Shown here piece after piece: positions 3,577-53,060 of a stretch of 64,000 nucleotides of DNA; within the stretch, counting starts at the first letter, position 1; each line of letters begins with the position of its first letter. The notes under the pieces were generated by a model. The model was not told the DNA's origin, ran no database searches, and saw only the letters and a list, made by a program, of their open reading frames with translations. The stretch is from Undibacter mobilis (GTDB taxonomy: Bacteria; Pseudomonadota; Alphaproteobacteria; Rhizobiales; Xanthobacteraceae), in the NCBI RefSeq assembly GCF_003367195.1, contig NZ_QRGO01000001.1, forward strand, positions 2,652,501 through 2,716,500, read 5' to 3'. Position numbers and translations under genes: made by a program.

Positions 3577-3704
3577 GGCGAATCCTCCATCGGCAACGCG
3601 CGGGCGCGGCGCGCAATCACATATGGAGAAACGAATATATCTCCGCCATCGAACCCGTATTGACCTGGATCAACCCTCGCGCGGACGTGAAGGCTGTGGA
3701 GAAG

Positions 3705-4727
3705 TCAGCCGAACCGCTGCCGCGCCAGTTTGGCCCCGTCGCCCAGCGCCTTGAGCTTGGCCTCGGCGATCGGGCGGTGCATCGGCGCCATGCCGCAATT
3801 GGTGCAGCAGACGATGCGGTCCTTCGGCACGTATTTCATCACGTCGGCGATGACGGAGGCGACCTTGTCCGGCGTCTCGACAATGTCGGTCGCGACATCG
3901 ATGACGCCGACCAGCAGGTCCTTGCCTTCGAGCAGCGACAGAAGGTGGAGCGGTACACGCGAGTTGATGGCTTCGAGCGAAATCTGATTGACTTTGCTCT
4001 TCGCCAGCGCCGGGAAGATCTTCTCGTATTGCCGCCATTCCTCGCCGAGCGAGTTCTTCCAGTCGATATTGGCCTTGATGCCGTAGCCGTAACAGATGTG
4101 GACGGCGGTCGTGCATTTGAGGCCGTCAATCGCGCGATGAAGTCCCTCAATACCCCAGGTCGGCACCTCATCCATGAAGACGTTGAAGGCCGGCTCGTCG
4201 AACTGGATGACGTCGACGCCGTCTTTCTCCAGCGCGCGGGCCTCGGCGTTGAGAAGATCGGCGAAGGCGAAGGCCATTTTCACCTTGTCGCCGTAATGGG
4301 CGTCGGCGACGGTATCGGCAATCGTCATCGGGCCGGGCAGGGTGACTTTGAGTTTGCGCGCCGTGTGGGTGCGGGCGTGCCGGGTCTCGGCCTCGTGGAC
4401 GCGGCCCTTGAGCGTCAGCGCGCCGCGCACCACCGGCACCATCGCCTTGTAGCGATCGGCACGGATGCCCATCTCGACCTTGTTCTGGGTATCGATGCCA
4501 TCGACATAATCGAGGAAGCCGTGGACGAAATGCTGGCGTGACATCTCGCCGTCGCAGACGATGTCGATGCCGGCATCTTCCTGCAGCTTGATCATCAGCA
4601 GCGTGGCGTCGAGCTTGCCCTGGGCTAGGTCAGCGCCGTCGAGCCGCCACTTCGGCCACAGTTTATCCGGCTCGGCGAGCCATGATGGCTTCGGCAAGCT
4701 GCCGGCAATGGTGGTCGGAAACAGCAT
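3705..4727 (-). CDS. MetE-like (cobalamin-independent methionine synthase C-terminal domain) protein
   Basis: 340 aa, about half the length of classical MetE, so it has only the catalytic C-terminal barrel. It begins MLFPTTIAGSLPKPSWLAEP, includes IVCDGEMSRQHFVHGF and FDEPAFN, and ends near the zinc-ligand region (VCCTNCGMAPM). Such core-MetE proteins may use a methyl donor other than methyl-tetrahydrofolate, and several alphaproteobacterial copies have no proven substrate. It is the third gene of an operon, 23 bp after the FAD monooxygenase, which suggests that it handles a product of that enzyme. Methionine synthesis itself is not proven. Confidence 0.82.
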   Translation of the reverse strand: MLFPTTIAGSLPKPSWLAEPDKLWPKWRLDGADLAQGKLDATLLMIKLQEDAGIDIVCDGEMSRQHFVHGFLDYVDGIDTQNKVEMGIRADRYKAMVPVVRGALTLKGRVHEAETRHARTHTARKLKVTLPGPMTIADTVADAHYGDKVKMAFAFADLLNAEARALEKDGVDVIQFDEPAFNVFMDEVPTWGIEGLHRAIDGLKCTTAVHICYGYGIKANIDWKNSLGEEWRQYEKIFPALAKSKVNQISLEAINSRVPLHLLSLLEGKDLLVGVIDVATDIVETPDKVASVIADVMKYVPKDRIVCCTNCGMAPMHRPIAEAKLKALGDGAKLARQRFG

Positions 4728-4750
4728 CGACGCCTCCCTCTGCAGCGCTA

Positions 4751-5956
4751 TTAAACGGCGCCTTGATCCTGCCGCCAGTTATAGACCCAATCGTAGCGCT
4801 TCAGTAGGCGTTCGCCGCCGATCAGACGCATCACAAGATTGCGCGCGACCGCTTCGGGTCCGGTGCGGCCATAGATCGAGCCTTGCTGGCGTGCGGTGCG
4901 CTGGACCCGCGCGGTGCGGGCGCGGCGCAACCTTTCATAGGCCCGCAGGCCGGCCGCCGGATTTTCGCTGTGTTTTTTCAGCGTGTCGGCGAGCACGGCC
5001 GCGTCTTCGATCGCCATGCCGGCGCCTTGCGCGAGGAACGGCAGCATCGGATGCGCGGCATCGCCGACCAGCGTCACCGCACCGGCGCCGCCGGCAAAGG
5101 GGGTGGCATTGTCGAACAGCGCCCATTTGAGCCAGCGCTGCGGAATGCCGATCAGTTCACGCACCGATTCCGCCCAGGTGAAGCGGGCAAAGCGCCGCAG
5201 AATCTCGGTGCGGTCGCCGGGCGCGTTCCAGCCTCGCTCATTCCAATCGTCGTTGACGATGCCGACCAGATTGACGAGGGCGCCGGCTTTGACCGGATAG
5301 GCGACGAGATGGGCATCCATGCCGAGAAAGAGATGAACCACCGGCGCGCGGAGATAGTCGGGGACGCTGTCGGCGGGCACCAGCGTCCGCCAGGCCGTGC
5401 GATGTGCGAAGACGGGCTTGCGGTGGCTCTTGAGCTTGTCGCCAACCGCCGACCAGATGCCATCGGCGCCGATCAGCGCCGCGCCGCGCTCGTCAACCAG
5501 TTGCTTGCCGCGAAACGCCTGCACGGTGATGCCGTTGGCATGGCTGGCGAAGTCGTCGAAGCGATGATCGAGTTTGATGTCGATGTCGATCATGCCGCGC
5601 GCGCCATCGAGCAGGGCGGCCTGCAGGTCGCCGCGATGAATGACCCAGAACGGCGCGCCGTAGCGGCGTTCGGCGAGGTCACCGAGGGGAATGCACGCGA
5701 TTTCGCGGCCCGAGCCGCCGGACATCACGCGGATCATTTGCGGTTTGACGACATGGGGCTCGAGCCGGTCGCGCAGGCCGAGTTCGAAGAGGATGCGGGT
5801 GGCGTTCGGCGAGAGCTGAATGCCGGCGCCGGTCTCTTCCAGCTTCGCCGCCTGTTCGAGCACGGTGGCGCGGAAGCCGGCGCGCGACAAAGTCATCGCG
5901 GTGGTCAGACCGGCAATGCCGGCGCCTGCGACGATGACGTGACGCGAAGGCGCCAA
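4751..5956 (-). CDS. FAD-dependent aromatic-type monooxygenase (salicylate/3-hydroxybenzoate hydroxylase-like)
   Basis: 401-aa group A flavoprotein hydroxylase. The N-terminal Rossmann motif is VIVAGAGIAGLTTAM, the middle DG motif is ALIGADGIWSAV, and the GD motif near the C-terminus is LVGDAAHPMLPFLAQGAGM. The ETGAGIQLSPNATR segment is typical of the salicylate hydroxylase branch. The start is a TTG at 5956, 15 bp after the zinc-finger gene, and no strong ribosome site is visible. It is co-transcribed with a zinc-finger protein and a MetE-like protein. No other aromatic catabolism genes are nearby, so the substrate is open; UbiH-like biosynthetic roles remain possible. Confidence 0.88.
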   Translation of the reverse strand: MAPSRHVIVAGAGIAGLTTAMTLSRAGFRATVLEQAAKLEETGAGIQLSPNATRILFELGLRDRLEPHVVKPQMIRVMSGGSGREIACIPLGDLAERRYGAPFWVIHRGDLQAALLDGARGMIDIDIKLDHRFDDFASHANGITVQAFRGKQLVDERGAALIGADGIWSAVGDKLKSHRKPVFAHRTAWRTLVPADSVPDYLRAPVVHLFLGMDAHLVAYPVKAGALVNLVGIVNDDWNERGWNAPGDRTEILRRFARFTWAESVRELIGIPQRWLKWALFDNATPFAGGAGAVTLVGDAAHPMLPFLAQGAGMAIEDAAVLADTLKKHSENPAAGLRAYERLRRARTARVQRTARQQGSIYGRTGPEAVARNLVMRLIGGERLLKRYDWVYNWRQDQGAV

Positions 5957-8543: not shown

Positions 8544-9371
8544 ATGGCGCTGCATCAGACCCGGCCCAAAGGCCTGAATTCCGTCGATCCCGTCTGGACC
8601 CGCATTCGCACCGAAGCCGAAGACATCGTGCGGCGCGAGCCGGAACTCGCCAGCTTCATCTACGAGAACATCCTGCACCACGACACGCTGGAGACGGCGG
8701 TGGCACATCGCGTCAGCCAGCGGCTCGAGCATGCGGACGTGTCGAGTGATCTCATTCGCCAGGCGTTCAGCGATGCCATCGAGGATCGTCCGGCGCTCGG
8801 CGAAGAGTTCAGGGCCGATATCGTCGCCACCATCGACCGCGACCCGGCCGCCAACCGGCTCATCGAGCCGCTGCTTTATTTCAAGGGCTTCCATGCCATC
8901 CAGACGCATCGTCTGGCGCACTGGCTGCTCGGCAAGGGCCGCAAGGATTTCGCGCTGTATCTGCAGAGCCGGTCGTCGGCCGCGTTCCAGTGCGACATCA
9001 ATCCGGCGGCGAAGATCGGCCGCGGCATCTTCCTCGATCATGCGACCGGGCTCGTCGTGGGCGAGACCGCAGTGATCGACGACAATGTTTCGATCCTGCA
9101 CGACGTCACGCTCGGCGGCACCGGCAAGGAAAACGAAGATCGCCATCCCAAGATCCGTCAGGGCGTGATGATCGGCGCGGGCGCCAAGATTCTCGGCAAT
9201 ATCGAGATCGGCCGCTGCGCGCGCATCGCCGCCGGTTCGGTGGTGATCAAGCCGGTTCCGAATAACGTTACGGTGGCTGGCGTGCCGGCCCGGGTGGTCG
9301 GTGAAGCCGGCTGCTCCGAGCCGTCGCGGACCATGGATCAGATGCTGTCCGGTATCATGCTGGATGGCTGA
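8544..9371 (+). CDS. cysE: Serine O-acetyltransferase
   Basis: 275 aa. Transfers acetyl from acetyl-CoA to L-serine, the first step of cysteine synthesis, in the cytoplasm. The N-terminal helical domain (VDPVWTRIRTEAEDIVRREP, about residues 13-120) is followed by a left-handed beta-helix of hexapeptide repeats (about 150-245) with the catalytic region FLDHATGLVVGETAVI and HDVTLGG. The length matches E. coli CysE (273 aa). The C-terminal tail, which in CysE carries the cysteine feedback and synthase-binding residues, here ends GIMLDG. Monocistronic by spacing. Confidence 0.96.
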   Translation: MALHQTRPKGLNSVDPVWTRIRTEAEDIVRREPELASFIYENILHHDTLETAVAHRVSQRLEHADVSSDLIRQAFSDAIEDRPALGEEFRADIVATIDRDPAANRLIEPLLYFKGFHAIQTHRLAHWLLGKGRKDFALYLQSRSSAAFQCDINPAAKIGRGIFLDHATGLVVGETAVIDDNVSILHDVTLGGTGKENEDRHPKIRQGVMIGAGAKILGNIEIGRCARIAAGSVVIKPVPNNVTVAGVPARVVGEAGCSEPSRTMDQMLSGIMLDG

Positions 9372-40591: not shown

Positions 40592-42079
40592 TTGCCCAAC
40601 ACCCCCAATCCAGCCCCCGGCGTGTCGAAGCATCCCGGCTTTCTCGCCATCTTCCCCTCCATCATGCTGCCGATGTTTCTGGCGGTGGTGGACCAGACCA
40701 TCATCGCGACGGCGTTGCCGGCGATCGTGGCCGCGACCGGCGAGGTCGAGCGCGCGTCCTGGATCGTCGTTTCTTATCTGATTGCCGCGACCATCGCAGC
40801 GCCGGTCTATGGCCGACTCGGCGATTCCTTCGGCCGTCGCCGGATCATGTATTTCGCTCTCGCCATCTTCATGGTCGCGTCGGTTTTGTGCGCGGCATCG
40901 ACCACAATCCTCACGCTGACCTTAGCGCGTGTGCTGCAAGGTCTCGGCGGAGGCGGCCTGATGACCTTGTCACAGGCGCTGATCGGAGAGTCCATTCCGC
41001 CGCGCGAGCGCGCCCGTTATCAGGGTTATCTTGCTGCCGTCGCGGTTTGCGCCAACAGTTTCGGCCCGATCGCCGGTGGTTTTCTCACCGAGCACTTCGG
41101 CTGGCAGTCGATTTTTCTGGTCAATCTGCCGATTGGACTATTCGCGTTCTATCTGGTGACCCGGTTGCCGCCTCCGCATGGCGAACGCTTGGCCTGGCGC
41201 GCCGATCCGGGAGGCGCCATTCTGTTTGCAATCTTCGTTGCGACGACACTGCTGGCGCTGGAACAGGTGCAGCGTGCCGATCTGGCGAACCTGCCGATCG
41301 GTGCCGCGCTGCTGGCAGCCGGTGTCATCGCTCTTGTTATTCTCGTCTGGCACGAGAACCGTGCGGCCTCGCCGCTCATTCCGCTCTCGCTGCTGCGGCA
41401 ATCGGCGATCTGGCACAGCGACGCCATGGCGGCCTGTCACGGCGCCGCGCTGGTATCGCTGATCACCTTCCTGCCGGTCTATCTCGAAGTGGTGCGCGGA
41501 TTTTCGCCGTCCGCGACGGGCCTCGTGCTGGTGCCGCTCACGGTTGGCATCGGTGTCGGCTCGCTGGTCACAGGCCGGCTGGTCAACATCACCGGGCGTC
41601 TGATGATCTATCCCGTGGTCGGGCTATTCATCGCGACACTCGATTTCATGGTGTTGTCGCTATTTGGCGACAGGTTCGATATCGTCGCGCTCGCGATTCT
41701 GCTGCTCGTCAACGGTCTCGCGATGGGCACGGTCATGGGCGTGGTGCAGGTCAGCGTGCAGAACGCCGCCGGACAGCTGCGGCTCGGCGAGGCCGCCGCT
41801 TCGGTTCAGTTTTCGCGCTCGATCGGCGCTGCTTTTGGCACGGCGCTGGTGGCGACGCTTTTGTTCGCGGTGCTGTCGTTGCGTAATCCGGATTCGGCGC
41901 GGGTCTTTGCCGCGATGTTCGAGCACGCTAAGCATGCCGGCGCCGGTTTGTCAGTGTCTCAGCTATCGGAGATTCAGGGCGATATCACGGTCGCGTTCCG
42001 CGCCGCCTTTATGGCGATGGCGCTGTTCACGACTTGCGGCTTTTTCCTGTCCATCACAAATCCGCAAAAGCGGATCTGA
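40592..42079 (+). CDS. MFS multidrug exporter (EmrB/QacA, DHA2 type, 14 TM)
   Basis: 495 aa from TTG 40592 (a GTG at 40622 would give MSKHPGFLAIFPSI). Fourteen predicted helices. Motif A is VYGRLGDSFGRRRIMYFAL, and the DHA2 motif C appears as VAVCANSFGPIAGGFL. The first helix starts LPMFLAVVDQTIIATALPAIV, which is typical of the EmrB/QacA group. Proton-driven export of toxic compounds is expected. Cotranscription with Usp suggests stress-linked expression. Confidence 0.93.
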   Translation: MPNTPNPAPGVSKHPGFLAIFPSIMLPMFLAVVDQTIIATALPAIVAATGEVERASWIVVSYLIAATIAAPVYGRLGDSFGRRRIMYFALAIFMVASVLCAASTTILTLTLARVLQGLGGGGLMTLSQALIGESIPPRERARYQGYLAAVAVCANSFGPIAGGFLTEHFGWQSIFLVNLPIGLFAFYLVTRLPPPHGERLAWRADPGGAILFAIFVATTLLALEQVQRADLANLPIGAALLAAGVIALVILVWHENRAASPLIPLSLLRQSAIWHSDAMAACHGAALVSLITFLPVYLEVVRGFSPSATGLVLVPLTVGIGVGSLVTGRLVNITGRLMIYPVVGLFIATLDFMVLSLFGDRFDIVALAILLLVNGLAMGTVMGVVQVSVQNAAGQLRLGEAAASVQFSRSIGAAFGTALVATLLFAVLSLRNPDSARVFAAMFEHAKHAGAGLSVSQLSEIQGDITVAFRAAFMAMALFTTCGFFLSITNPQKRI

Positions 42080-42086
42080 ACAGGGC

Positions 42087-42869
42087 TTAGAAACCGAATT
42101 GTTCGGTGAGGATGCGCTCGTCGAGACTGTGGCCCGGGTCGAACAGCAGGTTCAGCGAGATGGCGTGATCCATGCTGATATTGACCTTGCGTACAAAGCG
42201 CACTTCGTCGTGATCGGCAACCGCAGCAACCGGGCGCTTGTCGGCTTCCATGACCTCGATGGTGACATGCGCCTTGTCCGGCAACAGGGCGCCACGCCAG
42301 CGCCGTGGCCGGAACGGCGAGATTGGCGTCAGCGCGAGCAGGGGGGCATTGATCGGGATGATCGCGCCTTGCGCCGATAGATTATAAGCGGTCGAGCCCG
42401 CTGGCGTCGCGACCAGCACACCGTCGGCGACCAGCTCGGCGAGCCGCTCCTTGCCGTCGATGAGAATGCGCAGACGCGCGGCTTGCGCGCTCTGCCGGAA
42501 CAACGACACCTCGTTGATGGCGCGCCGCTCATGGATCACGCCCGCTTCGTCGCGCGCTTGCATGATCAGCGGATGGATGATGGTCGTGTGCGCCGCGGCC
42601 AGGCGCTCATGCAAGCCTTCAAGCGAATATTCATTCATCAGGAAGCCGACCGTGCCGCGGTGCATGCCGTAGATCGGCTTGGCCGAGGTCATGAAGCGGT
42701 GCAACGTCTGCAGCATCAGGCCGTCGCCGCCCAGCGCGACGATGACGTCGGCTTCCTTCGGGTCGGCATTGTCGTAGCGCGCCTCGAGCTGAGCAATGGC
42801 GGCGCGCGCCTCCGGCGTCGGGCTGGCGACAAAGGCGATGCGCTTGAATGAGGGGGCCGAGGGGCTCAT
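42087..42869 (-). CDS. nadK: NAD kinase
   Basis: 260 aa. Phosphorylates NAD to NADP. The GGDG motif is visible at residues 47-50 ([19 protein letters not shown]), then [36 protein letters not shown], and [12 protein letters not shown]. Length is slightly short of the usual 290 aa, as for several alphaproteobacteria. Convergent with the MFS gene; the intervening sequence is only 7 bp. Confidence 0.95.
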
Positions 42870-42991
42870 CGGGGGCTCTTGAGAGACCGGTCCCGCGCAA
42901 TGAGAATCTTGCGCAAGTCCCTGTCAGACATTCGATTTCCGGCGCTCCTTTATACGACTTGGGTTCGCTTTGTCGAGGCGGGATGGCCAAA

Positions 42992-43013
42992 GCCCGGCGC
43001 CGAAGCGCCGGGC
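42992..43013. terminator. Hairpin terminator of the lost MCP
   Basis: Stem GCCCGGCGC / GCGCCGGGC with a CGAA loop. An equivalent palindrome lies at 46055-46076 after MCP3, and the stretch between each hairpin and its MCP end (43014-43059 and 46077-46123) is also alike. This shows that it once terminated an MCP gene. Confidence 0.75.
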
Positions 43014-43059
43014 AGGTCGTCCTTTGCAAGGATCAGGCGATCGGCTTTACCCTGGAGCC

Positions 43060-43086
43060 CTAGAACTCCCTTTCAGTCGGTCTCCG
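43060..43086 (-). pseudogene. Remnant of an MCP C-terminus
   Basis: About nine codons only. The reverse strand ends ...GGGAGTTCTAG, like the MCP3 and MCP4 ends (...AGGAGTTCTAG, encoding WKEF-stop), but the Trp codon is TGA and one G is inserted. It begins directly after the CheW2 stop codon (43087-43089). The whole receptor body is gone. Together with the hairpin 42992-43013 it is a deletion scar of a CheW-MCP pair. Confidence 0.82.
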
Positions 43087-43620
43087 TCAGGCGTCGAGCA
43101 TGACGGTCCTGGAGTCGTTGCCATCGTGATCGGCGAGGAGATTTGGCAGGTCTATCAGGGCAATCATGACGTCCTCATTCGACACCAGGCCGGCAAGGAA
43201 ACTGGTCGAATCAGCGTGCCCGGTGCGCGGCACCGGCTGGATCTGCGCGGCCGTCACGGCGACGATATCAAGCACGCGGTCGCCGATGAGGCCGACCTGG
43301 CGGTCGCCGATCTGAACGATGATGACGATGTGCAAGGGTGAGGTTTCGGTCAGACCTTGGCCGAACCGACAGCGCAGGTCGACGATCGGGACGATAGCGC
43401 CACGCAGATTGAGCACTCCGCGGACATAGTCCGGCTGCTTCGGCAGATGAGTGATGTCAGACCAGCCCTTGATTTCGCGTACGGCCATGATGTCGACGCC
43501 GTATTGTTCATCGCCGATGGCAAAACTGATGAATTCGGTGGCTGTGGCCGGCGCGGTGGATCGGGATGTCGGTTCGACACGGTGATCCACTGCATTGTGT
43601 TCAGTCGCAGGCAGGTTCAT
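43087..43620 (-). CDS. cheW: Chemotaxis adaptor protein CheW (paralogue 2)
   Basis: 177 aa. The CheW core begins EFISFAIGDEQYGVDIMAV and contains REIKGWSDITHLPKQPDYV, NLRGAIVPIVDLR, and ends with VMLDA. A short variable tail (PATEHNAVDHRVEPTSRS) precedes the core. Unlike the other cheW genes, it follows an MCP (MCP2) on the same strand and is followed only by an MCP remnant. A strong hairpin lies between MCP2 and it, so it may have its own or read-through transcription. Confidence 0.95.
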   Translation of the reverse strand: MNLPATEHNAVDHRVEPTSRSTAPATATEFISFAIGDEQYGVDIMAVREIKGWSDITHLPKQPDYVRGVLNLRGAIVPIVDLRCRFGQGLTETSPLHIVIIVQIGDRQVGLIGDRVLDIVAVTAAQIQPVPRTGHADSTSFLAGLVSNEDVMIALIDLPNLLADHDGNDSRTVMLDA

Positions 43621-43654
43621 TTACATCATCCTGATGTCGCGGGTGTGGAGACCG

Positions 43655-43699
43655 CCGACTTGGCCGCGATGCGATCTCTTTTCATCGCGGCCGAGTCGG
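43655..43699 (-). terminator. Strong hairpin between MCP2 and cheW2
   Basis: A 17-bp arm pair (CCGACTTGGCCGCGATG at 43655-43671 and CATCGCGGCCGAGTCGG at 43683-43699, one mismatch) begins 34 bp after the MCP2 stop and ends 35 bp before the cheW2 start. No T-run follows, so it may be an attenuator or mRNA processing site rather than a full terminator. Confidence 0.6.
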
Positions 43700-43732
43700 G
43701 ACGGTTCGGAGGTATTTCGATCGAGCGGCGAA

Positions 43733-45490
43733 CTAGAATTGCTGCCACTCGTCGTTAACGGCCGTGGCGAGTGCGGTCTGCATGCCGCGCGCGGTTCCGG
43801 CAGTGCGCCGGGCTGGCGCAGCCTTAGTGCCGGCGGGAGTACGTTGCGGCACGGTCTTTGACGCCGGCGTGGCAGACGGCTCGACTCTCGGCGCAGGAGC
43901 ATGTTGCCCCACCTGCGCCGTTGCCGAGTGACCTTTCACGCGCGGGCGGAAGAACGCGATCCGTTGATCGTTCGACATCGCTTTGGCCTGCTGTTCGAGC
44001 GTCTTGGCGGTGGCGGCGTTCTCTTCCACCAGCGCCGAGTTTTGTTGCGTCACGACATCCATCTGCGAAAGAGCTTTCGTGATCTCGGTGATGCCGGTCG
44101 ACTGCTCGATGCTGGCGCTGGCGATTTCGGAAACGACGGCAGTAACCTTCTGAATGGAGGTGACGATTTCATCGAGCGACTGGCCGACTTTGTTGACCAG
44201 TTCGACGCCGTCCTTCACTTGAGTGCTGCTGCTGTTGATGAGGTCCTTGATGTCCTTGGCCGCTTGCGAGGAGCGCTGCGCCAGGCTGCGAACTTCGGAA
44301 GCAACGACAGCGAAACCGCGCCCTGCTTCGCCGGCCCGCGCTGCCTCGACGGCCGCGTTGAGAGCGAGGAGGTTGGTCTGACGGGCGATTTCATCGATGA
44401 CGACGATGATGTTGGAGATTTTCGTCGATGAATCTTCGATCTGGGCCATGGCTTCGACCGTCTTGGTCACGACCGCACCGCCGCGGTTTGCGACATCGCG
44501 GGCACTGACCGCGAGATCGCTTGCCTGCTTGGCGTTTTCCGCATTCTTCTTAACGGTGGCAGACATCTCTTCCATTGAGGATGAAGTCTCCTCAAGGCTT
44601 GCGGCCTGTTCTTCCGTACGCTGGGAGAGATCGGTGGTGGCGTTGGCGATCTCAACCGCGGCGTTGGTAACCTCGCTGGACGAGACTTTGATCGTGGCAA
44701 TGGTGTCACCAAAACGCTCGACGATCATTTCGCCGGCTCCGGCAATCTGGCCGACTTCGTCTTTGCGGCCGAGGCCGGTCATCGTGACATTGAAGTCGCC
44801 TTCGGAAACCTTCTTGAGCTGGGCCACGACCGAAACTATCGGGGTTGCCACAGTCTTCGTCAGGAAGAACCCGAAAAAGATCGCGAACACAATCGTGATC
44901 ACTGAGCCGCCAACCATGGCCCAGGTCGCGAAACGTCCCGCCGAATCGCTGGCGGCCTGGCGTACGGCCAGAAGGTCGCGCTCCATTTTGTCGACCTGCG
45001 CCATAATGCTGCGGATGCCGTCCATGGACGTCTTGCCGGCGCCGCCGGCCTCCATCGACCGGGCCTGCTCGCGGGTGGCGGGATTGCGCATCAGTTCGAT
45101 TTCAACCTTGCCGACCTGCGTCGCCCATTGCTCCTCAAGCGCCTTTACTTTGTCGAGCCGATCCTGCTGGACGGGGTTGTCCGATGTTAGGGCTTTGATT
45201 GCTTTGAAATTCTGAGCGAAGTTGGCTTCGCCTGCTTTCATTGGCTCGAGGAATTTCTCGTCGCCAGCGATGAGATAGCCGCGCAATCCGGTTTCGCGAT
45301 CGACCATGTCGCTGACAAGCTTTCCGGCGACTTCAAGAACCCGATAGGTATGCGTGTTCCAGCTCTGCGCCTTCTCCATGGCTGACAGGCTGTTCAGAAC
45401 AATGGCAGTCAACGCCAGGAGAACGGCAATTACTGCTGCGAATGACAGGGCGAGTTTGTGTGCAATCTTCAAGTTGAGCAGGAGGTTCAT
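43733..45490 (-). CDS. Methyl-accepting chemotaxis protein with CHASE3-type sensor (MCP2)
   Basis: 585 aa. Membrane helix 1 about residues 10-35, helix 2 about 185-210. The periplasmic part has the CHASE3 motif [24 protein letters not shown] ([20 protein letters not shown]) and the signalling coiled coil follow, with [20 protein letters not shown] at the tip. The C-terminus ends NDEWQQF, a WxxF tether like those of the other MCPs. The signalling domain is more diverged than those of MCP3 and MCP4. It is followed by cheW2. Confidence 0.94.
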
Positions 45491-45786
45491 TGGGCGTCCA
45501 GGTTGTTTGGAGGAAGTCTGTTAGGCGCCGCGGCCGTGGCGGACAGTCGCTAATGCCACAATAATTGCGGCAGCCACTCGCGAAGGGATGAGGGTCCCGC
45601 GCCTAGGCTCTTTCTAAAAAACAAGTCCTAAAAGACGGTTTGAAATATGCTTAATTTATATGTACATAATATATCTAACTTCCCGAGCCACCAGTCGCCA
45701 TCGCTTGTGGCTGCCTCTCTAATCAATAAAGACTGACGCCGGCTAACGAGCCGACCTCAGTGTTCTGGCGTAAATGCAAGGCAATG
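45491..45786. other. Promoter region upstream of MCP2
   Basis: Contains a low-GC stretch (45620-45700, with TTTATA and ATAATATAT) that probably holds the MCP2 promoter. I see no complete sigma factor consensus that I would commit to. Confidence 0.4.
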
Positions 45787-46047
45787 TCAGTCCGTGCCGA
45801 CCCCGTCGATCGCGGCTTTGCGCTGGATATATTCCAGGTAGTTGGTGCTGCCGCAGAGCGTGGCGACGTTGGTGAGATACTCGCGGGCTTTGACGCGGTT
45901 GCGCTGTTCGGCGTGCCACATGCCGTAATCGGAACAGGAGCGGCGCGTTTCGGGTCGGCTTTCAGCACCGCCTTGTAGAAAATCTTTGACGGCGCGTAGT
46001 CGCCCATGCGGCGATTGGCATAGCCGCTACAGTTGGCGACGTCGGCG
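45787..46047 (-). pseudogene. Frameshifted C-terminal fragment of the TPR-like gene at 51934
   Basis: About 260 bp aligning with the last third of the TPR-like gene. The upstream part reads DVANCSGYANRRMGDY, with KAVLKADPK after it, in one frame. A one-base deletion near 45940 shifts the rest, which in the other frame reads YGMWHAEQRNRVKAREYLTN and ends AIDGVGTD. The parallel residues in the intact gene are YGMWQAEQGNRVKAREYLTK and AVIDGTGTY. The N-terminal two thirds, including the signal peptide, are missing. A decayed duplicate, not expressed as a full protein. Confidence 0.9.
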
Positions 46048-46054
46048 TGCAAAT

Positions 46055-46076
46055 GCCCGGCGCCGCGGCGCCGGGC
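46055..46076. terminator. Palindromic terminator after MCP3
   Basis: GCCCGGCGCCG followed by its exact inverse CGGCGCCGGGC, a perfect 22-bp palindrome about 47 bp after the MCP3 stop. The same motif is found at 42992-43013. Confidence 0.7.
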
Positions 46077-46123
46077 AGGTCGTTCTTTGGAAGGGATCAG
46101 GCAATCGGCCTTCGCCTGGTGCT

Positions 46124-47932
46124 CTAGAACTCCTTCCAGTCGGTGTCGGCGCTGGCCGTCTCGATCTTCTTGAGCGCGCCGCCGGTTCCGGTGTGCTTGA
46201 GCTGGACGACGGACTTGGGGGCCGTCGGCTTTGCTGAAGCCGGTTTGGCAGGCACCACTTTGGCGATGGCAGGCTTGGCCGCCGGTGCTCTGCCGCCTAT
46301 TTCGGTTTCGATAGCCGAAGTGCTGCGAACCGTGGTGCGGTCATTCTGGCCGAGTTGGAAGAACGCGACCTGTTCGTCCATCATCTTGGCCTGATGCTCG
46401 AGGGTCTTGGCGGTGGCCGCATTTTCCTCGACCAGCGCCGAGTTTTGCTGCGTCACTTCATCCATCTGGGTGAGCGCCTTGTTGATCTGATCGATGCCGG
46501 TGGCCTGCTCGATGCTGGCATTGGCGATATCGGTCACGATCTCGGCGACCTTCTTGATCGAGGTGACGATATCGTTGAGCGAGGTGCCGGCCTGGTTGAC
46601 GAGGTCGACGCCTTCCTTCACCTGGACGCTCGAGTTGGTGATGAGGTCCTTGATATCCTTGGCCGCCTGCGAGGAACGCTGGGCGAGGCTGCGGACTTCG
46701 GAGGCCACCACCGCGAAGCCACGGCCGGCTTCACCCGCACGGGCCGCTTCCACGGCCGCGTTGAGGGCGAGCAGGTTGGTCTGGCGGGCGATCTCGTCGA
46801 TGACACCGATGATGTCGGTGATCTTCTGCGAGGACTCCTCGATCTTGGCCATGGCTTCGACGGTGCGGGCGACCACCTTGCCGCCGAGATCCGCGACGTC
46901 GCGGGTCTCGTTGGCCGAACGGCTGGCTTCCTGGGCGTTCTCGGCGTTGCGGCGCACGGTCGAGGTGAGCTCTTCCATGGCGGCGGAGGTTTCTTCCAGG
47001 CTCGCGGCCTGTTCCTCGGTGCGCTGGGAGAGATCGGTGGTCGAGGTCGAGATTTCGGCCGAGGCGTTAGTCACTTCGCGGCCGGAGGCTTTGATCTCGG
47101 CGATCGTCTCGCGCACTTTCTCCGCCATTTGCCGAACCGACGCAGCGATCTGGCCAACTTCGTCCTTGCGGTCGGTATTCGGGACCTTGACGGTGAAGTT
47201 ACCTGCAGCGATTTCGTCGAGCGGCTTGACCATTTCGCGAAGGGGGCGGGCGATGGTCATCGCGCCCATCAATGCCGCGGCGATCAAAATCGAGATCGTC
47301 AACACGCCCAATATGACCGATATGCGGTTGGCAAAATCGGCGGTGTCCTGAGCTTCGATCATCCGATCGCTTTTAGTCTTGACCGCGGCTTTTCTGGCCT
47401 CGGCGACGAGCGCGTTGATGCGTTCTGCGGTTGCCAGCGAAACCTTGGCTGCGGCAAGTTGCTTGCCGTCAAATTCGGTTGCTTGTGCAGCGTCTTGTCT
47501 GGCCTGGGCCTCGATCATCTGCCTCCTGAAGTCGACGATGACTTTAGCGTCCTTGGCATACTGATCGAGCGTGGCAATGATTTCTTCGAATCGGGCCCGA
47601 TTTTCCGGCTTGGCGAACTTTGGCAAGAGAGAGGATGCCTGATCGTGGCTGGTCTTACGGCGCTCCTCAAGAGTCGTCACGGCCGCCTGCATTTGGTCGA
47701 GGCTGCGGGACAGGCGTACATCGCGGACGGCCAATTGCAAGCTGCGCAAATTGGACTCGGTTGCGGTAGCTCCTTGCAGGATGTCGGCCTGCATGTTGGC
47801 AAGGTCGGTCGAGGATCTGACCGAGCTGCTACCCATAATCTGCCCCACGATGAGGCCGACCGCGAACAGAATACCAAGCCCGGACATCATTGAAAGTTTG
47901 AGCCCGATGCTGATATTGGAAAGCTTTAACAT
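46124..47932 (-). CDS. Methyl-accepting chemotaxis protein (MCP3)
   Basis: 602 aa; AGGAG lies just upstream of the ATG. Membrane helix 1 about 12-35, periplasmic four-helix-bundle-like sensor (about 40-200; [20 protein letters not shown], similar in type to MCP1), helix 2 about 205-230, HAMP ([20 protein letters not shown]), signalling coiled coil with [20 protein letters not shown] at the tip. Linker Lys/Ala/Pro-rich, C-terminus SADTDWKEF (WxxF tether). About 750 bp (46350-47099) are nearly identical to MCP4. Preceded by cheW3 on the same strand. Confidence 0.95.
46350..47099 (-). repeat. 750-bp near-identical block, copy A (in MCP3)
   Basis: Matches 49280-50029 at the same length; fewer than ten differences were noted by eye over the whole block. 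It encodes the HAMP-proximal coiled coil and the signalling domain. The flanking sensor regions and C-terminal linkers are much less alike. Confidence 0.92.
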
Positions 47933-48031
47933 TGATTTCTCCTGGCGATGGAAAGAGAGCTGTTGATAGATGCGACGTCACTGCGGCTCGTCACCGCAGA
48001 TAAAGTTACGGAGTCCCCCCTCAGAGACCCG

Positions 48032-48583
48032 TTACGCGTCGAGGACGATTGTCTTGGAGTCGATGCCGTTGTGGTCGGCAAGCAGGTTTGGCAGGTCGAT
48101 CAAGGCGATCATGACGTCTTCATTCGACACCAGTCCGGCAAGAAAGTTGGTCGAATGGGTGTGGCTGGTGCGCGGTACCTGTTGGATCTGCGCCGGCGTC
48201 ACCGATACGATGTCAAGCACGCGATCGCCGATGAGACCGACCTGGCGGTCGCCGATCTGCACGATGATGACGATGTGCAATGGTGAGGTTTCGGTCAGGC
48301 CCTGGCCGAAGCGGCAGCGCAGGTCGACGATCGGGACGATAGCGCCGCGCAAGTTGAGCACGCCGCGCACATAGTCCGGTTGCTTGGGCAGATGAGTAAT
48401 GTCCGACCAGCCCTTGATTTCGCGCACGGCCATGATGTCGACACCGTACTGCTCCTCGCCAATGGCGAAGCTGATGAACTCGGTGACATTTGATGCCCCC
48501 GCGGCGGCTTCGGTCAGAGGAGCGGTCGTCGCCGAGGCAACGGGCTGTGCCGTAACAGGAGGTGATGTAGCAATCTGAGTCAT
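48032..48583 (-). CDS. cheW: Chemotaxis adaptor protein CheW (paralogue 3)
   Basis: 183 aa; GAAGGAAG sits upstream of ATG 48583. A Thr/Ala/Val-rich tail of about 35 residues, then the CheW core (EFISFAIGEEQYGVDIMAV, REIKGWSDITHLPKQPDYV, NLRGAIVPIVDLR), ending TIVLDA. The core is nearly the same as CheW2 and CheW4. It lies 99 bp upstream of MCP3 on the same strand; the two form a cheW-MCP unit. Confidence 0.95.
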   Translation of the reverse strand: MTQIATSPPVTAQPVASATTAPLTEAAAGASNVTEFISFAIGEEQYGVDIMAVREIKGWSDITHLPKQPDYVRGVLNLRGAIVPIVDLRCRFGQGLTETSPLHIVIIVQIGDRQVGLIGDRVLDIVSVTPAQIQQVPRTSHTHSTNFLAGLVSNEDVMIALIDLPNLLADHNGIDSKTIVLDA

Positions 48584-48961
48584 TGAGGCTTCCTTCTCTT
48601 GACCCTACGACAAACAGCGCCTGCATGCGCGACGGCAGCGCCGCGCATTGCTCTCGACAGAGGCAATTCGTCGTTTGAGGGTAGGGATAGGAATACCCGC
48701 GTAATTTTAAATCGCGATTGAATTTAAACTTAATCTACTTTGCGCAGATGCGTTCAAATCACGACAGTAAGATGTGTTACCTGACAGAGCGAAGAATTTA
48801 AAAACACAATAACTGCATCGCATTTTTGCGTTTGTCGACGTGGCGGAATTTTATAAATAACAAGTGCCAGACTGGGAATCCATGATGCGTTTATCAACGT
48901 CGTCGATGCGATGCCGCGAATCACTTGGCGACGTTCGTCTGTGATCAGAGTCCGAAAAATT
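48584..48961. other. Low-GC spacer upstream of cheW3
   Basis: About 380 bp between cheW3 and the terminator of MCP4. The stretch 48700-48860 is much richer in A and T than the genes and probably holds the cheW3 promoter. I see no coding sequence that I would support. Confidence 0.5.
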
Positions 48962-49000
48962 GGGCGGCACGACGATCGAGGGGAGATCGCCGCGCCGCCC
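48962..49000 (-). terminator. Rho-independent terminator after MCP4
   Basis: A hairpin with outer stem GGGCGGC / GCCGCCC and inner stem CGATC / GATCG, followed on the minus strand by ATTTTTCGG. It starts about 41 bp after the MCP4 stop. Confidence 0.75.
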
Positions 49001-49041
49001 GGAGCCGATGGCATCGCCTCCATCGGACTTCGCTGAGAGCC

Positions 49042-50844
49042 CTAGAACTCCTTCCAGTCGGTGTCGGCGCTGGCCGTCTCGATCTTCTTGACCGCGCCGC
49101 CGGTGCCGGTCTGCTTAAGCTGCACCACCGCCTGATACTTGGCCGGGACCGGCTTCGCGATCGCCACTGCCGGCTTGGCGTCCACCGGCCTTGCTTCGGC
49201 CGACCGGGCAGGCTTGGCCGCCGGCGTCTTGGGCACCATTTCCTTGGCAATCCGGCCGGCCATCGCGGCCTCTTCCTGACCGAGTTGGAAGAACGCGACC
49301 TGTTCGTCCATCATCTTGGCCTGATGCTCGAGGGTCTTGGCCGTGGCGGCATTTTCCTCGACCAGCGCCGAGTTCTGCTGCGTCACTTCATCCATCTGGG
49401 TGAGCGCCTTGTTGATCTGATCGATGCCGGTGGCCTGCTCGATGCTGGCATTGGCGATGTCGGTCACGATCTCGGCGACCTTTTTGATCGAGGTGACGAT
49501 ATCGTTGAGCGAGGTGCCGGCCTGGTTGACGAGGTCGACGCCTTCCTTCACCTGGACGCTCGAGTTGGTGATGAGGTCCTTGATATCCTTGGCCGCCTGC
49601 GAGGAACGCTGGGCGAGGCTGCGGACTTCGGAGGCCACCACCGCGAAGCCACGGCCGGCTTCACCCGCACGGGCCGCTTCCACGGCCGCGTTGAGGGCGA
49701 GCAGGTTGGTCTGGCGGGCGATCTCGTCGATGACACCGATGATGTCGGTGATCTTCTGCGAGGACTCCTCGATCTTGGCCATGGCCTCGACGGTGCGGGC
49801 GACCACCTTGCCGCCGAGATCCGCGACGTCGCGGGTCTCGTTGGCCGAACGGCTGGCTTCCTGGGCGTTCTCGGCGTTGCGGCGCACGGTCGAGGTGAGC
49901 TCTTCCATGGCGGCGGAGGTTTCTTCCAGGCTCGCGGCCTGTTCTTCGGTGCGCTGGGAGAGATCGGTGGTCGAGGTCGAGATTTCGGCCGAGGCGTTGG
50001 TCACTTCGCGGCCGGAGGCTTTGATCTCGTGGATGGTGGTCCGGACCTTCTCCGCCATGACCTGGACCGAGTTGGCGATCTGGCCGACCTCGTCCTTGCG
50101 ATCGAGACCTGGTACCTTGATGGCAAAGTTGCCTTCGGCGATCTTGTCGAGCGGATCGACCAGGGCGCGAAGCGGCGAGGCGATACCGTACTGGCCGATT
50201 GTGAAGCCAATGATGAGGCCAAGGATGATGCCGATGGCGGCGCCGCCCATCATCAGTTTCGACGTATAGAGATATTCGGCGGTGGCGTCGTTCGAAACGG
50301 TCTCGACGTCCTTGTCCAAGCCTTCGGCCAGCACCCGGAGATTGACACGCACCTTGTTGGCGAGTTCTGCGCTCGACATTGCCTCCTTGCGCAGCCGGTC
50401 CAGTTCGGCGGTCATCTGGAAGTTGGTCACTGCGGCGGCGGCGCGGAAGGTGCCGTTGAGCTCCTTCTGGTAGGTGGTCCAGTCGGCTTCAAGCTCCGCC
50501 AACTTGGCCTTGACGTGGGGCCGGGTGGCCTTCTCCTTGAGCCACTGGAAGCGCTCCTGGAACAGCTTGCTCTCCGACGCGACAGCATCCTGCGCGGTCT
50601 TGATGCTTTCCGGGCGCGGATCGGTCGAGACCTGGAATTCGGCTCGGTTGATGGCGAGAAGGTTGACGGCAAGACGCTGAGCCATCGTCGACTGGCTGGA
50701 TACGACCTCCATCCGGTCGGTCGCTTCGCTCAGCGACTTGAGGGAGGTGATGCCGAGCCAGGCGATGGCGGACGCCACCATGGCGAGCAGCATGACGACG
50801 GAAACTATCTTGGTCAGCACTTTGAAGCGAGCAAGGATGGACAT
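49042..50844 (-). CDS. Methyl-accepting chemotaxis protein (MCP4)
   Basis: 600 aa. Membrane helix 1 about 10-32, periplasmic sensor about 35-185 with many charged helices ([20 protein letters not shown]), helix 2 about 190-213, HAMP ([20 protein letters not shown]), coiled-coil signalling domain with tip [21 protein letters not shown] low-complexity Pro/Ala/Lys linker, then SADTDWKEF (WxxF tether). The 750-bp signalling core (49280-50029) is nearly identical to MCP3, but the sensors are unrelated. Preceded by cheW4 with a 48-bp gap. Confidence 0.95.
49280..50029 (-). repeat. 750-bp near-identical block, copy B (in MCP4)
   Basis: Partner of 46350-47099 (same length). Encodes the adaptation and kinase-control coiled coil. 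The block ends at the same codon on both sides, and outside it the two genes are clearly different. Confidence 0.92.
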
Positions 50845-50892
50845 CTAAATCCCCATTTTCCTGATTAGATAATGTTGGCGCGATGAGATTTT

Positions 50893-51453
50893 TTAAGCGT
50901 CGAGAACGACGGTCTTCTGTTCGTTGGCGACATGGTCCGCCAACAGGTGCGGCAGATCGATCAAGGCGATCATGACGTCCTCGTTCGACACCAGCCCGGC
51001 AAGAAAGCTGGTCGAATGAGCGTGACTGGTGCGCGGCACCTGTTGGATCTGCGCCGGCGTCACCGACACGATGTCAAGCACGCGATCGCCGATGAGACCG
51101 ACCTGACGGTCGCCGATCTGCACGATGATGACGATGTGCAGCGGCGTGGTTTCGGTCAGGCCCTGGCCGAAACGGCAGCGCAGGTCGACGATCGGAACGA
51201 TGGCGCCACGCAAATTGAGCACGCCGCGCACATAGTCCGGTTGCTTGGGCAGGTGGGTAATGTCCGACCAGCCCTTGATTTCGCGCACGGCCATGATGTC
51301 GACGCCGTACTGCTCCTCACCAATGGCGAAGCTGATGAACTCGGTAACGTGCGAGGCCGCCGTGCCGTTGACGGCGGACTCGGAATCGTTGGTTGTATTG
51401 ATACTAATCTTAGGTTGAGTAATGATGGGTGTGGGTGCGACAACTTGCGACAT
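50893..51453 (-). CDS. cheW: Chemotaxis adaptor protein CheW (paralogue 4)
   Basis: 186 aa from ATG 51453 (an in-frame upstream start is less likely). Tail MSQVVAPTPIITQPKISINT, then the CheW core (EFISFAIGEEQYGVDIMAV, REIKGWSDITHLPKQPDYV, NLRGAIVPIVDLR), ending TVVLDA. It is followed by MCP4 48 bp downstream on the same strand; the two are co-transcribed. The core is nearly identical to CheW3. Confidence 0.95.
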   Translation of the reverse strand: MSQVVAPTPIITQPKISINTTNDSESAVNGTAASHVTEFISFAIGEEQYGVDIMAVREIKGWSDITHLPKQPDYVRGVLNLRGAIVPIVDLRCRFGQGLTETTPLHIVIIVQIGDRQVGLIGDRVLDIVSVTPAQIQQVPRTSHAHSTSFLAGLVSNEDVMIALIDLPHLLADHVANEQKTVVLDA

Positions 51454-51852
51454 TCCAGTGGTCCTTATTGTCCCTACGACAGGCAATAGTCATCGAAATG
51501 CGCGGCTTTACTTGGCCGAACATACCGCTCTGACGCGGAATCAAATCACACGAAGAGCATGTAGTAATAAGATACCGTGTTTACCTTAAGTTGAAATTGA
51601 TTTTATTCATAATATAAATAGTTAATAAATATTGTTAATACACGTATAGGCTGTATATGGCGAGCCGCTGTATCGGCAAAATCCGAGAAAATACATCGTG
51701 TTGCCGTGTTGCCGTGCTGCCGCGATAGCGTCGTCGAAGCGATCGACAAATTGGATGACGAAATTTCTAGAGTGAATGGCGCGCGGTTGGCGCCGGAGCA
51801 ATGCGAATCAGAATGCATCGCTCGTTGCACGAGGCGCCAGGAGAGGCGGAAA
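51454..51852. other. Low-GC spacer upstream of cheW4
   Basis: About 400 bp. From 51540 to 51660 it is strongly AT-rich (ATTTTATTCATAATATAAAT), probably the promoter of cheW4. A short array of GTTGCCGT-like units lies at about 51700-51725. No coding sequence is supported. Confidence 0.5.
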
Positions 51853-51888
51853 CAAAAAAAACCGCCGGGTGATATGAGCCCGGCGGTT
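51853..51888 (-). terminator. Rho-independent terminator after the TPR-like gene
   Basis: Ten-base stem AACCGCCGGG / CCCGGCGGTT with an 8-9 nt loop, followed on the minus strand by a run of T. It ends about 46 bp after the gene's stop and insulates it from cheW4. Confidence 0.85.
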
Positions 51889-51933
51889 AGAATTTGTCGC
51901 TTGTGCGATTGTGCGGTTAAAGCAAGCCGGCGA

Positions 51934-52482
51934 TCAGTACGTGCCGGTGCCGTCGATCACGGCTTTGAGCTCGATATACTCCTGGCAGTTGGTGTTGCCG
52001 CAGAGCGAGGCGACCTTTGTCAGATACTCACGAGCCTTGACGCGGTTGCCCTGTTCGGCCTGCCACATACCGTAATAGGACCATGTGCGGGTGTGCTTCG
52101 GGTCGGCTTTCAGCGCAGCCTCGTACCAGATCTTCGACTGCTCATAGTTGCCCATACGGCGGTTGGCATAGCCGATGTAGTTGGCAACGTCCGGGTTGCT
52201 GTCGCGGCCGAGTGCATGCATCGCGGCAATGCCCGCATCGTATTGGCCGGCGAGAATCAATTGACGCGCTGCGCGATAGTCACGCAGGAATTTCTCATGG
52301 GCCTTGGCTTGCGCGAGCTGCTGCTCCGGCTGTTCGATTGCGCTGCCTTTCTTGTCCTTCTTCTTGTCGTCTGTCGGCGTATCGGTGCCGGCCGCATAGA
52401 CCGGCTTGAGGCCAACGGCGGTGACGAGCAAGGCCGCGGCGGCGATTTGAGGGAGGTGACGTAAAACACGGATGAGGGTCAT
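51934..52482 (-). CDS. Secreted TPR-like repeat protein
   Basis: 182 aa. Signal peptide at the N-terminus (IAAAALLVTAVGLKPVYAAG), then a Lys/Asp-rich patch (DKKKDKKG). A tetratricopeptide-like array (about 85-165) follows, with ADPKHTRTWSYYGMWQAEQG and AREYLTKVASLCG. TPR repeats mediate protein contacts, here in the periplasm. It is the upstream gene of the MCP4-cheW4 block but is isolated by a terminator. A frameshifted partial copy lies at 45787-46047, next to MCP3, so the gene was part of a duplicated block. Function unknown. Confidence 0.85.
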   Translation of the reverse strand: MTLIRVLRHLPQIAAAALLVTAVGLKPVYAAGTDTPTDDKKKDKKGSAIEQPEQQLAQAKAHEKFLRDYRAARQLILAGQYDAGIAAMHALGRDSNPDVANYIGYANRRMGNYEQSKIWYEAALKADPKHTRTWSYYGMWQAEQGNRVKAREYLTKVASLCGNTNCQEYIELKAVIDGTGTY

Positions 52483-52775
52483 GGCGGTTGGACCTCTGTG
52501 GTTGATGCGGCACGGCGACAGGTTACGCCAGGTCGCCGGCCCAACAGGAAAAACAATTCGTGAAGTCGTTTAGTCCCGCCGGGAAACGAAATTTATCCGG
52601 CCACCAGGCCGGCAGGGTGGTTCTTTGGAACCCGACAACCTGAACGGCGGATAACGGCCCGTCTCAGATCGCATTCAGAGCCGGAGGCCTAGAAAGGGTG
52701 CCATCAGCCGGCCCGTCGCCGGTTCGCCGGGGATAACCCAAGGGTGCCGGCCGCCCGCCAAAAAGGAAGAATTCG

Positions 52776-53060
52776 ATGTTCAAGACCATCTCTGCCGCCG
52801 CTATTGCGCTCAGCCTGATCGCCGCGCCGGCCTTCGCTCAGAGCGCCAGCCCGACCGCCGCCACCACGGCCCCGGTGACCACGCCGGCCAAGCCAGTTGT
52901 CCAAAAGAGCGATGCGGTCAGGAAGCACGTCGCCAAGCACAAGAAGAACAAGCACGTTGCGCAAAAGCACAGCGTCAAGAAGCACACCGCCAAAGCGCCG
53001 GCGAAGCTGAAGGCCGCCAAGGTCAAGACCGACAAGACCGTCAAGCCGAAGGCCATCTGA
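52776..53060 (+). CDS. Lys/His/Ala-rich secreted small protein
   Basis: 94 aa. Signal peptide (MFKTISAAAIALSLIAAPAFAQ), then a Thr/Pro/Ala linker and a basic C-terminus with repeated KH pairs (VRKHVAKHKKNKH, KHSVKKHTAKAPAKLKAAK). Net charge is strongly positive. No fold was recognised. Similar small secreted Lys-rich proteins occur in Rhizobiales. Possibly cell-wall or polyanion binding. The KHx spacing could also bind metal. Function unknown. Confidence 0.8.
   Translation: MFKTISAAAIALSLIAAPAFAQSASPTAATTAPVTTPAKPVVQKSDAVRKHVAKHKKNKHVAQKHSVKKHTAKAPAKLKAAKVKTDKTVKPKAI

Follow-up and report, generated by a model that had tools for sequence, protein, structure and literature searches.

What does the short stretch between the stop codon of the coupling protein gene cheW2 and the NAD kinase gene nadK represent, in a window of 64,000 nucleotides from Undibacter mobilis (contig NZ_QRGO01000001.1, positions 2,652,501 to 2,716,500 of the forward strand)? 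A preliminary description of this DNA had taken it for the last few codons of an MCP gene, followed by the spacer and terminator of that gene, and had concluded that the body of the receptor had been deleted. The comparisons below lead us to a closely related account, which is very probably correct: part of a cheW–MCP island was duplicated, and a receptor was then lost, leaving a stub behind while cheW2, the hairpin and the sequence upstream of nadK were spared.

Read along the minus strand, the island runs in the order TPR gene, cheW4, MCP4, cheW3, MCP3, a hairpin, a piece of a TPR gene, MCP2, cheW2, the remnant, a spacer, a second hairpin and nadK (Table 1). The genome as a whole has 23 PF00015 matches. 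The spacers upstream of cheW3 (48600–48899), cheW4 (51450–51749) and MCP2 (45450–45749) have G+C contents of 0.45, 0.43 and 0.50, respectively, in surroundings of about 0.6; a foreign origin of the DNA upstream of MCP2, considered for its low G+C, was dropped because the cheW4 and cheW3 spacers are lower still.

Table 1. Features of the island between the TPR gene and nadK, in minus-strand order (window positions).
Feature	Coordinates	Strand	Basis
TPR gene, full, far border of the island	51934..52482	minus	Pfam TPR
cheW4	50893..51486	minus	Pfam
MCP4	49042..50844	minus	Pfam
cheW3	48032..48583	minus	Pfam
MCP3, with tail and hairpin like those of the remnant	46124..47932	minus	Pfam, self-comparison
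MCP3 hairpin	46054-46077	minus	match to 42992-43013
Duplication join, end of MCP3 hairpin to TPR interior	46044..46049	minus	match ends, congener search
TPR gene copy, truncated, frame-broken	45787..46043	minus	82% to 51934-52191
MCP2, CHASE3-HAMP-MCP, upstream of cheW2, C-terminus EWQQF	43733..45490	minus	Pfam, tail
cheW2, intact coupling protein gene	43087..43620	minus	Pfam PF01584 118 bits, dN/dS
Deletion join, cheW homology to MCP tail homology	43084..43086	minus	self-comparison, base-by-base view
MCP remnant, E-T-D-[W to stop]-K-[+G]-E-F-stop	43060..43086	minus	aligned to MCP3, MCP4, L112, L113 tails
Spacer from MCP stop to hairpin, homologous to the post-MCP3 spacer	43014..43059	minus	part of 84% match
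Hairpin of lost MCP, probable terminator	42992..43013	minus	match to MCP3 hairpin, fold
nadK (NAD kinase), near border of the island	42087..42869	minus	NCBIfam PRK04761, 402 bits

Self-comparison of positions 42000–53000 matched 42986–43084 to the MCP3 tail and hairpin at 46049–46147, with 84% identity over 100 alignment columns and an E value of 2e-23. The local alignment score against the MCP3 place was 117, the maximum among 500 single-base shuffles of the query being 35, and in a DNA search of the whole genome with 42870–43100, with scores computed for 13 of the 36 first-look candidates, the same place was the only other own-genome match reported (E 1.9e-22). The tail also matches that of MCP4, where the hairpin is not part of the match (score 47, shuffle maximum 30), and does not match that of MCP2 (score 19, below the shuffle maximum of 29). 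On the minus strand from 43086 to 43060 the codons read E-T-D, then TGA at the position of TGG in MCP3 and MCP4, with one added G before a TAG stop. The stretch is thus an MCP remnant, significantly homologous to the terminal part of an intact MCP gene by both the E value and the shuffles, and, with TGA for Trp and the extra G, it lacks the x-W-x-x-F open frame of a functional CheR-docking pentapeptide. The WKEF-stop-like reading with a Trp codon turned into TGA and an inserted G, as first described, was confirmed by alignment to the MCP3 and MCP4 tails; the likeness of spacer and hairpin to the region after MCP3 survived alignment as well, and extends further than had been claimed.

The boundary of this homology is sharp. 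The match between cheW3 and cheW2 (43084–43540; 86.4% over 457 bp) runs from the gene body to three bases beyond the stop codon, and the receptor-tail homology begins at 43084 against MCP3; in the base-by-base view it may extend to 43086 against the receptor tail of the relative at locus L113. The body of a receptor is absent after cheW2, and the two homologies meet abruptly at 43084; the deletion join lies no more than three bases from the cheW2 stop, which bears out the earlier placement of one deletion end within a few bases of it. By eye, microhomology at the join amounts to one to three bases at most. If a single receptor laid out as MCP3 or MCP4 was lost, the deletion would have removed 1,882 or 1,825 bases, values that are arithmetic from the coordinates of those two genes and not measurements on the lost sequence, and a loss of about 1.8–1.9 kb (one receptor body) or more is the best reading. 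A multi-gene deletion across the array would leave an identical scar, and the loss of just one receptor is what we infer. The claim that cheW2 formerly had an MCP whose body was deleted is therefore supported, by the alignment and by the relatives considered next, with the refinement that the number of lost genes is not fixed.

For the relatives, we compared the nadK loci of the best 30 of 58 matching genomes (60 searched), all of a single genus and including our own, with upstream sequence reaching about 1.5 kb at most and less in some. The nearest recognised gene upstream of nadK is the TPR gene in 16 of the 30 loci, an AraC-type gene in four, an MCP gene in three (L070, L073 and L078), a TonB gene in one (L088) and cheW in one, the window itself; five have no query gene. 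Because the TPR gene is nearest to nadK, with no island between them, in those 16 loci, the cheW–MCP island appears from gene order to be an addition between the two. The three MCP loci hold receptors at the position of the scar, as the preliminary description had expected of close relatives. In L112 (the L070 genome, G033) and L113 (the L073 genome) an open receptor end reading DTDWKEF or ETDWKEF is followed by a hairpin and then by the nadK upstream region, collinear with the window; both contigs begin inside the receptor, which is consequently partial, a point that weighs against the loss reading. A second contig of the L073 genome carries TPR-cheW-MCP and breaks off in the conserved tip of the receptor, only a few codons short of where the nadK contig starts, suggesting the arrangement TPR-cheW-MCP-nadK. 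L041 (by its coordinates the L078 genome, G014) is uninterrupted, with TPR, cheW, an MCP2-type receptor and nadK in this order, and its receptor is complete, with the tail DWKEF; that this receptor is MCP2-like and not MCP3-like counts against the loss of a receptor after cheW2.

The locus nearest by nadK identity (L108, 93%), which lies on a single contig, has the order TPR-cheW-MCP-cheW-MCP, then a methyltransferase and an AraC-type gene, then nadK. Both of its island cheW genes precede a full MCP ending DTDWKEF. The methyltransferase and AraC-type pair separates its receptor from nadK, which counts against the loss reading, as does the fact that no relative examined shows a cheW2 ortholog beside the very receptor that was lost. 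Genes for a methyltransferase-domain protein and an AraC/DJ-1-type regulator, in opposite orientations, adjoin nadK both in L108 (3846–6142, by Pfam) and in L110 (about 3620–5895), and the AraC-type frame is split in the L110 genome. The hairpin region after MCP4 (48940–49041) resembles by eye that after the TPR-side MCP of L108 (about 9099–9202), a likeness suggesting that the two receptors correspond in position.

The scar itself appears to be private to this genome. A DNA search with 42985–43160 gave matches in four of 43 congener genomes, our own included, and the join of cheW to a receptor tail was found in our own only; the matches in G004 and G011 lie within the cheW part and that in G030 extends six bases beyond the stop. 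Scoring covered the top 19 first-look candidates of each genome, and the tail known from G033 (L112) was not among the matches, so diverged copies of the scar may escape this search. The nadK loci support a private scar independently, the window being the only one of the 30 in which cheW adjoins nadK.

A further trace of rearrangement lies between MCP3 and MCP2. In the self-comparison, positions 45787–46043 match the 3' part of the TPR gene (51934–52191) at 82%, with 257 bases facing 258 so that the frame is broken. In a tree of nine TPR sequences this copy groups with the TPR gene of the window and that of L063, with a support of 94/95 (below the starred level), and its branch is longer than that of the intact copy (0.22 versus 0.042). 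A query of 45780–46150 found matches in 34 of 43 congener genomes, mainly to the TPR gene; in most of the relatives listed the TPR match ends at 46043–46050, and the match of the scar hairpin begins at 46049. Continuous matches across the TPR–hairpin join were obtained in our own genome and, weakly, in G003 and G020 (E 3.3e-4); the latter two were rejected as fusions, since they consist of 48–66 GC-rich bases and the 2 kb fetched for each matched neither the TPR gene nor cheW nor an MCP. The fusion of the TPR gene to the MCP3 hairpin was thus not found in the 42 other congener genomes. These matches indicate that part of the island was duplicated, with the truncated TPR copy as its trace. The similar divergence of the TPR piece (82%) and the remnant (84%) is consistent with one duplication event, and duplication of the island best explains why the remnant is so specifically like the tail and hairpin of MCP3.

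The coupling gene next to the scar looks intact, its C-terminus being in register with those of cheW3 and cheW4. It has been under constraint, with pairwise dN/dS values of 0.13–0.23 against five other cheW genes (one partial), which average over its whole history and do not isolate the period after the loss. In the DNA tree it clusters with the island's own cheW genes (support 98/96). Its protein is nearest to the TPR-side cheW of relatives (90% to that of L108 and 93% over 89 residues to a partial one in L063), whereas by synonymous distance it is nearest to cheW3, and the cheW trees single out no particular island cheW as its ortholog, which also weighs against the loss reading.

Downstream, the region around the scar hairpin folds at −23.3 kcal/mol and its MCP3 counterpart at −23.7 kcal/mol; the hairpins of L112 and L113 have a similar stem sequence, and a search against Rfam gave no matches at gathering scores within 42000–53000. 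Because the hairpin is strong yet only three T follow on its 3' side, we grade termination there as likely and no higher. MCP2 and cheW2 lie on a common strand, 112 bases apart, and would most likely form one predicted transcription unit ending at the hairpin of the lost receptor. Six close relatives (G004, G033, G030, G027, G010 and G029) conserve part of the sequence upstream of nadK, for which reason the deletion probably left nadK expression undisturbed.

Other histories could be proposed for the same sequence. An incoming MCP2–cheW2 block might have displaced whatever had separated the old tail from the truncated TPR copy, in which case the join would be an insertion edge. MCP2 is indeed of another type (CHASE3), and its sensor half has a close relative only in G014 (59%) among the 42 other congeners, with other matches at 30% or less; a protein search with this half found a nearer relative, P0002, at 75% among the best 120 of 297 matches. 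The spacers flanking MCP2 (45491–45787 and the gap to cheW2) match no island spacer tried, none of the eight comparisons with spacers of the window, L041, L063 and L108 reaching the 95% level set by its 200 shuffles, so that they give no position for an insertion edge or for a lost cheW. We nevertheless regard such a replacement as unlikely: cheW2 at least looks native, because it groups with the island cheW genes and at its 3' end the likeness to cheW3 continues for three bases after the stop, the spacer of MCP2 is not foreign-looking in G+C beside those of cheW3 and cheW4, and G014 has an MCP2-type receptor at the same locus. That receptor (L041 10526–12295) stands after cheW, whereas MCP2 of the window stands before it. 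Tentatively, the scar may record a receptor swap within one transcription unit: MCP2 would have taken over the island copy, and the old receptor would have been excised almost exactly, from just after the cheW stop to just short of the terminator, leaving the coupling gene and the terminator to the new receptor.

Copying of the tail and hairpin from MCP3 by duplication or gene conversion, with no receptor ever having stood after cheW2, would account for the fact that the remnant resembles the tail and hairpin of MCP3 in its own genome more than those of the aligned relatives. It is very unlikely, since the tail seems to be in its ancestral place: in L112 and L113 an MCP frame leads into the tail, after which the hairpin and the sequence upstream of nadK come in the window's order, and in L041 a complete receptor gene stands immediately upstream of nadK. 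As for chance, or a similarity of the hairpins only, GC-rich hairpins do recur and two short chance-like matches turned up in congeners, but a match that spans codons, spacer and hairpin, with the E value and shuffle scores given above, rules this out for practical purposes.

The preferred history, duplication followed by receptor loss, would thus have begun with a cheW–MCP island between the TPR gene and nadK. A partial tandem duplication would have joined the island end, just beyond the hairpin of the MCP, to an internal point of a second TPR copy, and the copy on the nadK side would then have lost its receptor body after cheW2. One end of this deletion would lie at most three bases from the cheW2 stop and the other about seven codons ahead of the stop of the receptor itself, so that the codons for the pentapeptide stayed in place as a stub, along with the hairpin and the region upstream of nadK. 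The stub would afterwards have decayed by a nonsense change and a one-base insertion, and cheW2 would now, most likely, close a short MCP2–cheW2 unit that uses the terminator of the old receptor. The locus offers a small, layered example of turnover in a chemoreceptor array, with the gain of an island between two conserved genes, a tandem duplication that dragged along part of a neighbour and a clean receptor loss that spared the coupling gene. A further suggestion is that receptors which have been lost, and which gene calling misses, may be recognised by short conserved tails and hairpins next to cheW genes.

Receptor tails of the form x-W-x-x-F are known as C-terminal pentapeptides that bind CheR or CheB and whose second residue is Trp and fifth Phe (PMC7390727). 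MCP3 and MCP4 end in DWKEF, which fits the consensus given there and is not itself named in the text of PMC7390727, and the remnant is a run of codons for such a tail. Unlike the pentapeptides described in that text, it has a stop for Trp and a shifted frame and cannot be read as one.

The cheW–MCP pairs of L108 and L041 resemble the window in their TPR and nadK borders, their cheW domain and their tails (DTDWKEF and DWKEF, respectively), and differ from it in that the receptor body is present and, in L108, in the two additional genes before nadK. Among the open-licence matches listed, judged by titles and the starts of abstracts, searches on cheW/MCP duplication, pseudogenes and chemoreceptor loss gave no title on such a scar, and a search on Pseudolabrys chemotaxis gave none on these arrays. 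Deletion stubs are an ordinary pseudogene outcome in duplicated gene arrays. The scar after cheW2 is likewise ordinary gene turnover in a receptor array that gains and loses members: it shares with such stubs the short homologous end, the collinear flank, the decaying codons and the intact paralog nearby, and is the same in kind, if small, with about seven codons, a spacer and a hairpin.
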